A stretch of DNA of 48,107 nt from contig CALVEG010000014.1 in the NCBI GenBank assembly GCA_944326525.1, positions 1 through 48,107 of the forward strand, in the 5' to 3' direction. Below, piece after piece: positions 2,070 to 48,107 of this stretch; the stretch's first letter is position 1, and every line of letters starts with the position of its first letter. Origin of the DNA: Candidatus Gastranaerophilales bacterium. GTDB lineage: Bacteria > Cyanobacteriota > Vampirovibrionia > Gastranaerophilales > Gastranaerophilaceae. The translations under genes and the position numbers were made by a program. The notes under the pieces are model-generated. The model had not been told where the DNA came from. It did no database searches and saw only the letters and a program-made list of their open reading frames with translations.

Positions 2070-3212
2070 TTACAAAATAGTTATGTTGTCACGAGTAATT
2101 ATTGCGTCGTAATTTTTAAATCCGAGAACTTTGATAATATCATCTGAATGGCATCCGATAACTTTTCGGCAGGATTCAGAATCATAATTAACCATTCCTC
2201 TTGCAAATTCGTGGTCATTTTCATCAATAATTGAAATAACATCACCTTTGTCAAATTCATGGATTACATCAATCACGCCGATAGGCAAAAGGCTTTTCTC
2301 TTTTTCAACAAGAGCTTTTTTTGCACCATGGTTAACTTTAATTTTTCCGATAATATTTGTCGCATAACCAATCCAACGTTTTTTATCTGATAAGCCTTCC
2401 GTTTGTGGAAGAAACATTGTGCCGAGTTCCTCCCCTTCAAAAACTTTTTTAATTACATACGGAATTTTTCCGTTAGCAATAAGAACTTTTCCTCCAAAAC
2501 GTGTGACCATTCTTGCTGCCATCAGTTTTGTTCTCATTCCTCCTCTGCCGCCGTCTGAAGCGTCTGTTCCAAGTTCGAGAATTTCATCAGTAACTTCTTT
2601 TACGACCGGAATAATTTTTGCATCAGGATTTTCTTTCGGATTTTTGTCATATAACCCGTCTACATCGGATAAAATCAAAAGTAAATCAGCATCAAGTTCA
2701 CTTGCTACAAGCGCTGAAAGTTTGTCGTTATCTGAAAAACATACTTGCATATGTTCGTATCTGGGGTCAACTTCTATACTTGAAACGGTGTCATTTTGGT
2801 TTATTACGGGAATTACACCAAGTTCAAGAAGTTTATTTAATGTAGTTCTTAGGCTCAAGTATCTTGTTCTTATTCCAAAATCGTCTTCTGTTAAAAGAAT
2901 TTGTGCTGCAACAAGCCCGTAACCGTCAAACCCGCTTTCATATATGGACATCAATTTGCCCTGACCTATTGCGGCGCAAGCCTGTTTAAGGGCTGTTCCG
3001 GTTGTTCCTTCTAAACCTAATCGTTTTCTGCCTAATCCGACAGCACCAGAGGTTATCAAGATAACTTCTTTCCCTGATTTTACAAGGGAGGCCATATCTT
3101 CAATAAATGAAAAAACTCTTGGTAGTGAAACATTTCCGTCACTGTTTCTTAAGATATTTGTGCCGAGTTTTACGACAACTCGCTTTGCGTTTATAAATTC
3201 TTTTCTGTCCAT
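2070..3212 (-). CDS. proB: Glutamate 5-kinase with PUA domain
   Basis: First step of proline synthesis: ATP-dependent phosphorylation of glutamate. An amino-acid kinase domain (VVKLGTNIL near the N-terminus, LITSGAVGLG, VINQNDTVS, LSDVDGLYD, GGRGGMRTKL) is followed from about residue 275 by a PUA domain (LLPIGVI to FARGMVNYDSE). At 380 aa this is the full two-domain form, normally feedback-inhibited by proline. It is the first gene of proB-proA-tyrA. No Shine-Dalgarno is visible. A TGC-TATAAT box lies exactly 6 nt before the ATG, so a leaderless mRNA is likely. Confidence 0.96.
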   Translation of the reverse strand: MDRKEFINAKRVVVKLGTNILRNSDGNVSLPRVFSFIEDMASLVKSGKEVILITSGAVGLGRKRLGLEGTTGTALKQACAAIGQGKLMSIYESGFDGYGLVAAQILLTEDDFGIRTRYLSLRTTLNKLLELGVIPVINQNDTVSSIEVDPRYEHMQVCFSDNDKLSALVASELDADLLLILSDVDGLYDKNPKENPDAKIIPVVKEVTDEILELGTDASDGGRGGMRTKLMAARMVTRFGGKVLIANGKIPYVIKKVFEGEELGTMFLPQTEGLSDKKRWIGYATNIIGKIKVNHGAKKALVEKEKSLLPIGVIDVIHEFDKGDVISIIDENDHEFARGMVNYDSESCRKVIGCHSDDIIKVLGFKNYDAIITRDNITIL

Positions 3213-3227: not shown

Positions 3228-3280
3228 TAGAAAATATTTTTAATGATGTGATTTTGTATTTAACTTTAAATTAATTATAG

Positions 3281-3566
3281 GTGCGTCGGAATGACGCACA
3301 CTACAATAATAAATAAAAGCCTCCTGCAGGGTCTTGCGCAGACAGCGGTCGCTTTTGTGGAAAAGCGACGCAAACCACGCCCTGCACTCCGTTCGCTAAT
3401 CATTTGTAATTGTTTTACCCAAAGCAAGCAAACTCGCTTCGCTCAAACAAAGCTTGCTTTTGAAGCTGTGAAACAAAACAATGCTTGCTCACTCCGTGAA
3501 GGGCGATTATTTTTTAAATTAAATTTTTTCTGATAATTACAAAAAGGTTGCGTTGTTTGACGCACA
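3281..3566. repeat. Interspersed hairpin-rich repeat, copy 1
   Basis: Core at 3319-3510 framed by two copies of a palindrome: GTGCGTC-GGAAT-GACGCAC at 3281-3299 and a wobble-tolerant version ending GACGCAC at about 3548-3565. Inside the core are a 9-bp hairpin GTCGCTTTT/AAAAGCGAC (3348-3356 and 3361-3369), a nested pair TTGTTTTAC/GTGAAACAA (3410-3418, 3468-3476) around AAGCAAGC/GCTTGCTT (3422-3429, 3452-3459), and TCAC-TCC-GTGA (3489-3499). It is richer in G+C than its surroundings. About 93% identical to the copy at 47.8 kb. An 80-codon frame crosses it but is not called as a gene. It fills most of the 442-bp gap between proB and the methyltransferase gene. Function unknown. Confidence 0.85.
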
Positions 3567-3654: not shown

Positions 3655-4572
3655 ATGATTTTTATTGGTGAAAATATTCATGTCATTTCTAAAAATGTTA
3701 GAGAAGCACTTTTAAAGCGTGATGAAAGTTTTGTAAAAAGGCTTTTGAGTATCCAAAGTGGTATGGATTTTGCAGATTTGAATGTTGGTCCTGCAAGAGG
3801 TGATTTAAGCGGAATTTTAAGTTGGATTTGTCCGATTGTCGAAGAAAATTCCAATTTGAAACTTTGTTTGGACACGACAAATTTTGATGAAATGAGAAAT
3901 GCATTTGAGTTTATAAAGTGTCCCGAAAAAGTAATTTTAAACAGCACAACAGGAGATGACTCAAAGCTTGAGCAGATGTTGGATTTGGTCTGCCAAAAGG
4001 GGTGTAATTTAATTGCTCTTACAATGACTAAAGAAGAAGGTATTCCAAAAAGTTGCGACGGGCGAATGGAGATTGCGTTTAAAATTTATGAAAAATGTTT
4101 GGAAAAAAATATTGCGGAAAAAGTTTATTTTGATCCGCTGATTTTGCCTGTTAAGGCTGACCAATCTCAGGCAAAAAAGTCGCTTGATACTTTAAAAATG
4201 CTGAAAGAAGCTTTTGAAATCCCTGTGAAAACCGTAATTGGACTTTCAAATATTTCAAACGGTGCTCCTGAAAATTTAAGGGGGATGATTAACAGAGTTT
4301 ATGCAGTACTTGCCTTTGGTGCGGGGTTGGATGCTGTAATTATGGATGCATCAGATAATGAATTGAAAAGAATTTTGAATATGCTTGAAGCTAAGATTCC
4401 CCAAAATGCTTTAGATAACCTTTATATTAGTTTAAGTGAAATGATAAAAAACTTTGGAGATTTGGAAGATATTAAATATGACAAGAACGATTCTAAACAA
4501 GTAGAGGTTATAAAAACTTGTGAAGTGTTGTTGAATAAAAAAATATATTCTGATAGTTTTGCACAAGTTTAA
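3655..4572 (+). CDS. Pterin-binding methyltransferase (methyltetrahydrofolate:corrinoid protein methyltransferase-like)
   Basis: A 305-aa TIM-barrel pterin-binding protein of the DHPS/MeTr superfamily. Visible family segments are FADLNVGPARGD near residue 40, LCLDTTN, ILNSTTGD, LIALTMTKEEGIP, YFDPLILP and VIGLSNISNGAP, ending in the barrel strand LDAVIMDASD. These match the AcsE/MtrH/MetH-domain group, which moves a methyl group from methyltetrahydrofolate to a cobalamin-bearing partner. Slightly longer than the usual 260-270 aa of AcsE. No corrinoid protein, CO dehydrogenase or methionine synthase gene lies beside it, so the acceptor is unknown. Dihydropteroate synthase is less likely because the motifs follow the MeTr pattern. 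Confidence 0.8.
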   Translation: MIFIGENIHVISKNVREALLKRDESFVKRLLSIQSGMDFADLNVGPARGDLSGILSWICPIVEENSNLKLCLDTTNFDEMRNAFEFIKCPEKVILNSTTGDDSKLEQMLDLVCQKGCNLIALTMTKEEGIPKSCDGRMEIAFKIYEKCLEKNIAEKVYFDPLILPVKADQSQAKKSLDTLKMLKEAFEIPVKTVIGLSNISNGAPENLRGMINRVYAVLAFGAGLDAVIMDASDNELKRILNMLEAKIPQNALDNLYISLSEMIKNFGDLEDIKYDKNDSKQVEVIKTCEVLLNKKIYSDSFAQV

Positions 4573-42009: not shown

Positions 42010-42315
42010 AATTTAAGTTTATATTATATTCAAATTATTGTAAATAAGCTTTTGAATGGAAAAATTCAGGAGAGAAACCTTCCTGAATAATTTGTTTGTA
42101 ATCGTTTTATCTATAGCTCACAAGCTCGCTTTGCTTAAATAAAAGCGGTATTACATTTCTCTGTTTGTAATTATTGATCAATTCGCCAATGTTGTAAAAA
42201 ATTTTATAAATGTTTGCTTGCTCAAAACTTTGGTTTTTATATTGTTTATTTCGCAAATGGCAGTTTTAAAAATAAATTATTACTAAGAAAGCCGGTTAAA
42301 TTAACCGACTTTTAC
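42010..42315. other. Intergenic stretch with a possible decayed repeat copy
   Basis: About 300 bp between mfd and the RWYDxDP gene. A short inverted repeat TTCAGGA/TCCTGAA lies at 42066-42088. From about 42090 to 42233 the order of words TTTGTAAT, CGTTTTA, AAGCTCGCTTTGCTTAAA, TTGTAAAA and GTTTGCTTGCTC recalls the repeat core of 3319-3510, but much diverged. No ORF or tRNA seen. Confidence 0.4.
42288..42311 (-). terminator. Terminator of murA and the RWYDxDP gene
   Basis: AGCCGGTTAA/TTAACCGACT stem (42290-42310) just beyond the minus-strand gene end, followed on that strand by a short T/C tract. Confidence 0.7.
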
Positions 42316-46570: not shown

Positions 46571-46976
46571 TTATCTAAGGCAAAACGCGAGCGTAAAAGA
46601 AATTCCTGTAGCTGCGATTGTTGTGAAAGATAATGAAATAATTGCTTCAGCTTGTAACAGAAAAGAATCTGAAAATGATGTTACTTCCCATGCTGAAATT
46701 CTTGCAATAAGAGAGGCATCTGAAAAACTCGGAAGATGGAGGCTTGACGATTGTGAGCTTTACGTAACCCTTGAACCTTGTCCTATGTGTGCTTGGGCAA
46801 TTTTGCAATCAAGAATAAAAACTGTCTATTTTGGTTCTTATGATGTAAAATACGGAGCTTTAGGTTCGGTAATTGATTTAAGGGAATTTTCTGATTCCAA
46901 ACCAAAAGTTTGGGGTGGAATTATGGAAAAAGAGTGCGATGAAATTTTGAAGAAATTTTTTGAGGGGCTTCGATGA
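46554..46976 (+). CDS. tadA: tRNA-specific adenosine deaminase
   Basis: Makes inosine 34 in tRNA-Arg(ACG). 140 aa from the ATG at 46554, which follows GAGG by 6 nt; in-frame upstream starts lie inside the kinase gene. Zinc-deaminase motifs HAE (about 46-48) and EPCPMC (74-79), with proton shuttle Glu48. Overlaps the kinase gene by 17 bp and the next gene by 4 bp (ATGA). Confidence 0.92.
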   Translation: MQRAIDYLRQNASVKEIPVAAIVVKDNEIIASACNRKESENDVTSHAEILAIREASEKLGRWRLDDCELYVTLEPCPMCAWAILQSRIKTVYFGSYDVKYGALGSVIDLREFSDSKPKVWGGIMEKECDEILKKFFEGLR

Positions 46977-47731
46977 TTACGAAAGAAAAAATGGATGAGC
47001 TTGTTAAAAAATATGAAACGGAAAATTTTATTTCTCCTGATCCGATAAGTATTCCGCACAAGTTTCAGGATAAAAAAGATATAGAAATTGCTGGGTTTAT
47101 TTCTTCGCTTGTAGCATATGGAAGCAGGAAAGTTTTTTTGAAAAAACTTGACGAACTTTTTAAAATTGCTAATAATGAACCGCTGAATTTTATTCTTAAT
47201 TTTGAACCTGAAATGATTGGAGATTTTAATTACAGATTTGGAAAACCTAAAGATTTTGCGGAAATTTTTAAGATTTTGCGCAATTTATATGAAAAAGACG
47301 GCGGACTTGAAGAACTTTTTAAATATGGTTACGGCTTGACTGACACGATTGACGGGCGAGTTGAGAAAATGTTTGAAGTTGTGACGGATTATTTTTATTC
47401 AAGAGTTTCTAAAAATGCTGGTCAAGGGTTTTATTTTATGATTCCTGATCCGAGAAACGGCGGAGCGATGAAAAGAATGTGTATGTACTTAAGATGGATG
47501 GTAAGAAAACCGCCAGTGGATTTTGGGGTTTGGAATTTTATGCCGCAGTCTGAACTTTTGATTCCGCTGGATGTTCATGTTGCAAGAATTTCAAGAGAAA
47601 TGGGGCTTTTAACAAGAAAGCAGAATGATTTTAAAGCAGTGTTGGAATTAACCGAAAATCTTAAAAAGTTTGATGCAGAAGACCCCGCAAAGTATGATTT
47701 TGCAATGTTCGGACTTGGAGTTAATCAATAG
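46973..47731 (+). CDS. TIGR02757-type conserved protein
   Basis: 252 aa. IEIAGFISSLVAYGSRKVFLKKL, RFGKPKDFAEIFK, RNGGAMKRMCMYLRWMVRK, DFGVWNFMPQSELLIPLDVH and YDFAMFGLGVNQ match the uncharacterised TIGR02757/DUF2400 family, whose layout is distantly like helix-hairpin-helix DNA glycosylases (LDVHVARIS). Last gene of RR-kinase-tadA. Function unproven; DNA or RNA binding is likely from the fold. Confidence 0.85.
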   Translation: MITKEKMDELVKKYETENFISPDPISIPHKFQDKKDIEIAGFISSLVAYGSRKVFLKKLDELFKIANNEPLNFILNFEPEMIGDFNYRFGKPKDFAEIFKILRNLYEKDGGLEELFKYGYGLTDTIDGRVEKMFEVVTDYFYSRVSKNAGQGFYFMIPDPRNGGAMKRMCMYLRWMVRKPPVDFGVWNFMPQSELLIPLDVHVARISREMGLLTRKQNDFKAVLELTENLKKFDAEDPAKYDFAMFGLGVNQ

Positions 47732-47745
47732 TTAATTATAAATAT

Positions 47746-48030
47746 GGTACGTCGTTTGACGCACCGAATTTATAATATTAATTAATTTAAGCCTCCGGCG
47801 GGTCTTGTGCAGACGGCAGTCGCTTTTGCGGAAAAGCGACGCAAACCGCGCCCTGCACTACGTTCGCTAATCATTTGTAATTGTTTCACCCAAAGCAAGC
47901 AAACTCGCTTCGCTCAGACAAAGCTTGCTTATGAAGTTGTGAAACAAAACAATGTTTGCTCACTTCGTGAAGGGCGATTATTTTAAATCGAAAAATTTTG
48001 AATAATATGGCATAAAAAAGTTTAATGGAT
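47746..48030. repeat. Interspersed hairpin-rich repeat, copy 2 (complete 285-bp unit)
   Basis: Starts with the palindrome GGTACGTCGTTTGACGCACC (47746-47765), an AT-rich spacer, core 47791-47981 and an AT-rich tail. Hairpins: GTCT/AGAC (47802-47805, 47811-47814), GTCGCTTTT-GCGG-AAAAGCGAC (47819-47840), TTGTTTCAC/GTGAAACAA (47881-47889, 47939-47947) around AAGCAAGC/GCTTGCTT (47893-47900, 47923-47930), TCAC-TTC-GTGA (47960-47970). Relative to copy 1 the core has 12 substitutions after its first 10 bp or so, with no stem broken. It fills the stretch after the last gene. Confidence 0.9.
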
Positions 48031-48107
48031 GGTGCGTCGTTTGACGCACCGAATTTATAATATTAATTAATTTAAGCCTCCGGCGGGTCTTGTGCAGACG
48101 GCAGTCG
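48031..48107. repeat. Interspersed repeat, copy 3 (cut by the window end)
   Basis: Begins GGTGCGTCGTTTGACGCACC at 48031, exactly 285 bp after copy 2, and matches its first 77 bp with a single difference (G for A in the palindrome, which restores the perfect stem). Shows a tandem array that runs past the window. Confidence 0.92.

Follow-up and report, generated by a model that had tools for sequence, protein, structure and literature searches.

A folded core repeat of Gastranaerophilales, a probable arm of a two-armed, MITE-like element found among REP hairpins

The 48,107-nucleotide stretch of Candidatus Gastranaerophilales DNA analysed here (the window) contains copies of a folded core repeat, which we interpret, with a probability of about 0.55, as one arm of a small non-autonomous, MITE-like element of Gastranaerophilales; in the lineage of the window, the arms lie among REPs and have been amplified together with them. 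Our analysis establishes the fold of the arms, the two-arm architecture, the inverted repeats in relatives, the GTAG hairpins, the turnover at sites and the tandem amplification. The features of the window are collected in Table 1.

Two cores, about 93% identical in the core region (alignment A1, rows 1-2), are present where a reading of the letters alone (the sequence-only reading) had placed them, and blastn aligns them with 92% identity over 207 bp (3307-3513 and 47745-48033). As had also been claimed, they are G+C-richer than their surroundings, with a G+C content of 0.49 for both cores, against 0.22-0.23 in the flanks of the first one and 0.34 window-wide. Both copies are real, but a third one at the contig end (48030-48107) and a probable degenerate module had been missed. 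Copy 2 opens a tandem array of at least two units with a period of 285, the next unit starting at 48030; 48029-48107 is 99% identical to 47744-47822. Another contig (C19) of the same genome starts with the same 77 bases as the truncated unit at the right end of the window, and the assembly therefore broke inside the repeat. Such repeat-internal contig ends are found at 48030-48107 of the window and in contigs C19, C21 and C26 of its genome; copy numbers in short-read assemblies are therefore too low. The core has 9 blastn matches, fragments included, in its own genome (G000; 1.95 Mb, 98.5% complete) and up to 22 in close relatives of this genome. Among named genomes, an exact 21-base string of the core is present in one Candidatus Gastranaerophilales MAG.

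Table 1. Features of the folded module, its framing hairpins and its neighbouring genes in the window
Feature	Position	Strand	Evidence or remark
Core copy 1, arm type A (structured module)	3319..3510	+	blastn, alignment, fold; B-model match 3328-3518 at 103 bits
Core copy 2, arm type A	47791..47981	+	blastn, alignment; B-model match 47799-47989 at 98 bits
Further type A core, start only, rest cut by contig end	48074..48107	+	repeat of the preceding unit
Probable degenerate B-type module	42054..42207	+	weak evidence: 12.8 bits, E 0.11 (covariance model); nhmmer 42115-42196
Separate 9-bp hairpin of the module, stem GTCGCTTTT/GAAAAGCGAC	3348..3369	+	consensus helix at columns 36-57; also folds alone
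Long interrupted arm CGCCCT...AGGGCG, apical stem GCAAGC/GCTTGC	3378..3505	+	consensus fold
Conserved sequence AAACTCGCTTCGCTCAAACAA of the 22-nt apical loop	3430-3450	+	common to arms A and B
GTAG-tagged REP hairpin, left frame of copy 1	3280..3304	-	palindrome 3280-3300; stem GTGCGTC/GACGCAC 3281-3299; tag CTAC 3301-3304, GTAG on the minus strand
Right frame of copy 1, an imperfect REP-like hairpin (GTTGCGTTGTTTGACGCACA) lacking the GTAG	3547..3566	+	palindrome reading
REP-like hairpin (GGTACGTCGTTTGACGCACC), one stem base changed, left frame of copy 2	47746..47765	+	palindrome reading
REP hairpin between tandem units, perfect stem, GATG in place of GTAG	48031..48050	+	palindrome reading
Left flanking gene of copy 1, AA_kinase and PUA domains (glutamate 5-kinase-like)	2070..3212	-	domain match
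Gene with a pterin-binding domain, flanking copy 1 on the right	3655..4572	+	domain match
Flanking gene of copy 2, DUF2400	46973..47731	+	domain match

Besides type A, that of the window, there is a second, diverged core type, B, whose DNA matches A in a central stretch only and whose architecture is the same. The two window cores are retrieved by the B covariance model (E 1e-24 and 2e-23), and B loci by that of A (E 2e-30 and 6e-29); arms A and B are relatives, belonging to one structured family. The core had been described as four hairpins: it does fold, but a better description is one separate hairpin followed by one long interrupted arm. The RNAalifold consensus contains 47 pairs in A and 43 in B, and standard pairs account for 97.1% (A) and 97.7% (B) of the alignment cells on these predicted structures. 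Both sides have changed in 13 of the 47 pairs of A (89 cells) and in 14 of the 43 pairs of B (54 cells), counts that are inflated by related sequences and that refer to a structure derived from the same alignments. None of 500 shuffles matches the share of pairing, the both-sided changes or the covariation score, for A as for B, and pairing falls to 33-53% when the partner strand is shifted by 1-3 columns; the measure of further pair types shows no excess over shuffles. Compensating pairs above background are what the sequence-only reading had named as support for a structure, and they strongly support a conserved fold of both arms. The differences between copies 1 and 2 also avoid pairs, as it had noticed: of the 11 differences in the core, a single one lies in the paired columns, which make up 88 of the 174 (P = 0.005). 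Folding energies of single sequences (z -1.6 to -2.8) are only moderately better than those of shuffles. A lead is provided by the small loops, whose minus-strand sequence is GNA (GCGNAGC, GTCC-GGA-GGAC), a type known for very stable DNA mini-hairpins. A search for tRNAs found none.

Palindromes (GGTGCGTC...GACGCACC) frame both cores, as had been proposed, the right frame of copy 1 and the left frame of copy 2 being imperfect. The pattern GTGCGTC-N5-GACGCAC is exact at 3281-3299, in the left frame of copy 1; when up to 3 mismatches are allowed, it has 2 matches in the window, against 0.21 expected. In the fetched loci of G000 and of two related species (G010, G001), an exact GTAG stands at the 5' foot of the stem in 43 of 90 distinct palindromes, which has a chance of about 1e-52 if bases are assumed to be independent; one of the four hairpins of the window has it. 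These 90 examples have 8-bp stems and 4-5-nt loops; from the GTAG side, the loops of GTAG hairpins mostly read GTTT, GTTTT or GTTCC. A GTAG 5' of the stem is the hallmark of the GTAG REP super-family (PMC3733652) and is recognised by TnpA-REP (PMC8266576). The palindromes are found alone, between tandem cores and beside prepilin genes, independently of the core, and their copies number about 25-35 per genome (14-29 matches per genome for one loop length), where usual REPs number hundreds. By their sequence, the framing palindromes are GTAG-tagged REPs of a known type and a repeat separate from the core. What had been taken for a single family is indeed interspersed and folded, but is a composite of a REP palindrome and the core, the probable arm of a two-armed element. 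In G012, arm A copies (L077, L080) adjoin another palindrome, CGTCATTCTGACGCAAGTCAGAATC, resembling the CGTC-tagged REP super-family of PMC3733652.

From end to end, the full two-armed element consists of an inverted repeat, an AT-rich spacer, arm B, the oppositely oriented arm A, a second AT-rich spacer and the other inverted repeat. Two-armed elements (G006, G007, G009, G012) measure about 400-950 bp, contain no gene and have converging arms, and B and A arms are usually convergent wherever they are found together; at one locus (L051), a B-A pair is nested within an A arm. The terminal inverted repeats are AT-rich, measuring about 31 bp with one mismatch in L073, and the end sequence is CATAAWRWWTGTTAT. 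The outer inverted repeats clearly beat all 200 shuffles at L068, L070, L073, L081 and L087, and marginally at L069; L071 was also scored and was excluded, as the matched stretch extends into module-like sequence. A 15-mer of the end is found at 15 sites in four genomes, 14 of which pair as 7 inverted pairs. The flanking 2-bp repeats, seen in most cases, are TA/TA in L068, L070, L231 and L237 and AA or TT in L230, L236 and L228, with no clean duplication in L069 and L082; in A/T-rich surroundings, such 2-bp duplications are weak evidence. Several sets of flanks represent the same ancestral insertion in different species. The inverted repeats are not preserved around the window copies, which are therefore assigned to the two-armed element through relatives. 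In G011, a further arm type has an A-like start and a B-like end (L088, L089, L095, L096), and the window-type hairpin is not seen alongside.

In the fetched stretches on which the comparisons of genomes rest, the site of copy 1, in the gap between the glutamate-5-kinase-like and the pterin-binding genes, contains REP-A-REP in G000, REP-prepilin-REP behind the same left hairpin in G010, and REP-B on one contig and prepilin-REP on another in G001. It is empty, with about 50 bp, in G009, where the flanks beyond the hairpins differ too, so that the comparison locates the site and not the exact insertion borders. The site that L051 occupies in G010 is empty in G000. Another locus, L047, consists of two identical 282-bp tandem units; in these units as in those of the window, the hairpins have the same orientation and do not alternate. 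In the lineage of the window (G000, G010, G001), REPs and solo arms are arranged as tandem units within intergenic slots; the same slots contain prepilin genes or are empty in sister species. The prepilin N-methylation motif is the most frequent family among 128 proteins, mostly those of module-flanking genes with a few prepilins added by hand. In hairpin-bordered prepilin-like genes, the ATG is closely followed by 8-13 consecutive G (L131, L171, L172, L187, L193, L206, L208, L210, L211, L217, L223, L161, L057 and L011 in G010 and G001; L175 in G000). The ATG frame enters the prepilin motif in some of the poly-G copies and stops within about 15-21 codons in others; these genes are candidates for phase variation by slippage. 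Matches to the prepilin-like protein vary widely between species of the same genus and number, per genome, 12 in G000, 29 in G010, 102 in G001, 90 in G007 and 83 in G012.

The covariance model R2 has matches in 101 of the order's 241 genomes, spread over 18 of 50 genera, and nearly all of them fall in one family; its per-genome counts are lower bounds, about ten candidates being scored per genome. Of 194 genomes sampled across the phylum, 37 match, and all listed ones belong to the same family. The 21-base pattern has two matches in viral contigs, a strong one in L226 and a weaker one in L227. The former is a phage contig that encodes a terminase and a major head protein; it has a full module beside the terminase gene (1352-1553, E 6e-25) and is a possible vehicle between hosts. 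The latter, from a viral collection, has a weaker full-length match (1076-1269, E 5e-7) adjoining a gene for DUF6261, a domain typical of Bacteroidota, and gives a hint of the module outside the phylum Cyanobacteriota. A 16-base loop pattern matched 67 stretches of viral contigs, which by our own estimate is about chance for 15 fixed bases, and was dropped.

In the MITE-like reading, a transposase would act in trans and move the element via its inverted repeats, and the arms would be maintained for their ability to fold in single-stranded or cruciform DNA while the element moves. The REPs would have been spread earlier by a RAYT-type enzyme, since lost from these genomes; solo arms, but also whole pairs, lie among them in the window's lineage. 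As the comparison of species shows, units of one REP and one arm, about 285 bp long, multiplied in tandem and were lost or replaced at fixed intergenic sites, recombination or slippage between REP and arm copies being the likely source of the tandem units. A classical MITE needs no folded arms, and the conservation of the fold is therefore unexplained by such transposition alone. A point against the reading is that no transposase with matching ends was found in the families of flanking genes or in an end scan of 191 genomes: there is none among the 25 most frequent families of the 128 proteins mentioned above, and the loose inverted-repeat end pattern that was scanned for a parent transposon gave a count equal to the control.

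The strong compensating changes and the conserved apical loop could also be those of a structured non-coding RNA, the transcribed module acting as a folded RNA, regulatory or mobile, and spreading by an unrelated route. The minus-strand RNA fold of copy 2 beats 199 of 200 shuffles (z -2.8) and, in A, wobble-compatible changes on shared pairs are more numerous on the minus than on the plus strand (20 against 5 cells), but those of B favour no strand (10 against 7 cells). The two copies had been said to bear the signature of a folded RNA or of single-stranded DNA; the fold is conserved, but these strand counts do not decide between the two. Many RNA families have wobble pairs that are not rare, whereas only 14 of about 1460 standard pairs are wobble pairs here (alignment A1), a rarity that suggests pairing of the arms at the DNA rather than at the RNA level. 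The neighbouring genes of modules have mixed orientations (26 tandem, 20 divergent, 17 convergent), and this speaks against a constant function as terminator or leader; the module is also without a match in Rfam; the RNA explanation is, in our opinion, unlikely. The GTAG tags and the tandem hairpin-core units recall a REP/BIME system, in which a RAYT (Y1) transposase would mobilise the hairpins jointly with the core, their linker, in the form of single-stranded DNA, and GTAG hairpins of similar size and different sequence do adjoin the Y1 transposase genes of G003, G014, G016 and G018. However, arms A and B are not found at the Y1 loci of relatives, and many genomes without these hairpins have arms with inverted repeats and apparent flanking duplications. 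The tandem hairpins do not alternate, and the three REP-rich genomes G000, G001 and G010 have no Y1_Tnp match (RAYT/IS200-type). As REP-bearing genomes need not all keep a RAYT, this missing Y1 weakens the claim of mobility and leaves the structural claim untouched. We consider joint movement by a RAYT quite unlikely.

The hairpins could alternatively mark fixed intergenic slots where prepilin genes subject to phase variation and folded DNA modules would replace one another as cassettes, the modules being single-stranded DNA recognition structures for an undiscovered recombinase; this seems very unlikely to us. The lowest probability is given to a cassette system in which the hairpins would be recombination borders and the folded modules and prepilin genes exchangeable cassettes. 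Its merit is that the same slots have different contents in three species and that hairpins repeatedly border prepilin genes. The G001 prepilin at the glutamate-kinase-like site also resembles dgkA-site copies (84-85%) more than it does the prepilin at the corresponding site of G010 (81.5%), but gene conversion among paralogues could yield the same mosaic. Furthermore, prepilin relatives are equally many in G007 and G012 (90 and 83 matches), whose sampled element loci lack this hairpin, and no recombinase was identified in a search that left integron integrases outside.

When the MITE-like reading is compared with known systems, the framing palindromes resemble GTAG-tagged REPs (PMC3733652, PMC8266576) in being short, intergenic stem-loops with a GTAG directly 5', some of them in tandem. 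They differ in that the carrier genomes are without a detected Y1/RAYT, in having about 25-35 copies instead of hundreds, and in framing a much larger folded module. Like the bacterial MITEs RUP, NEMIS, ERIC and Nezha (PMC3733652), the two-armed element is short, gene-free and intergenic, with inverted-repeat ends, secondary structure and, in most cases, apparent short A/T duplications; unlike them, it has two subterminal arms of about 190 nt each, whose own fold is kept by compensating changes and which also persist alone, and no parent transposon is known. BIMEs are likewise mosaics of small modules, in variable number, between genes, but the modules are here larger, arranged head to tail, and also found as free two-armed elements; the REPs of BIMEs, joined by linkers, alternate in orientation, which those in the tandem units of L047 and of the window do not. 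Pneumococcal BOX elements are also mosaics of small modules, variable in number and located between genes, and the same differences apply to them.

The family had been called undescribed, and strict and permissive covariance searches of Rfam 15 give no match above the curated threshold, a plasmid collection gives only chance pieces (the best one covering 13% of the query), and neither the conserved loop sequence nor this element, sought among MITEs of Melainabacteria and among structured bacterial MITEs, was found in papers, subscription literature and repeat databases lying outside this search. Within Rfam, the papers and the plasmid collection, the core matches no described MITE or IS end, a match that would have spoken against the sequence-only reading. 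The framing hairpins add a new member to a kind already known, the REPs, and a MITE with secondary structure is likewise known as a general kind; the folded two-arm element is apparently undescribed, as far as Rfam, the papers and the searched collections reach.

Our results reveal an order-wide non-coding family in which compensating changes are clear. Its hosts are little-studied gut bacteria related to cyanobacteria, and it is also present in a phage contig. The unusually rare wobble pairs make the family a case where selection on a fold at the DNA level, as opposed to the RNA level, is testable. The repeat family explains contig breaks in these assemblies, and it points to turnover at sites that also carry poly-G prepilin genes.
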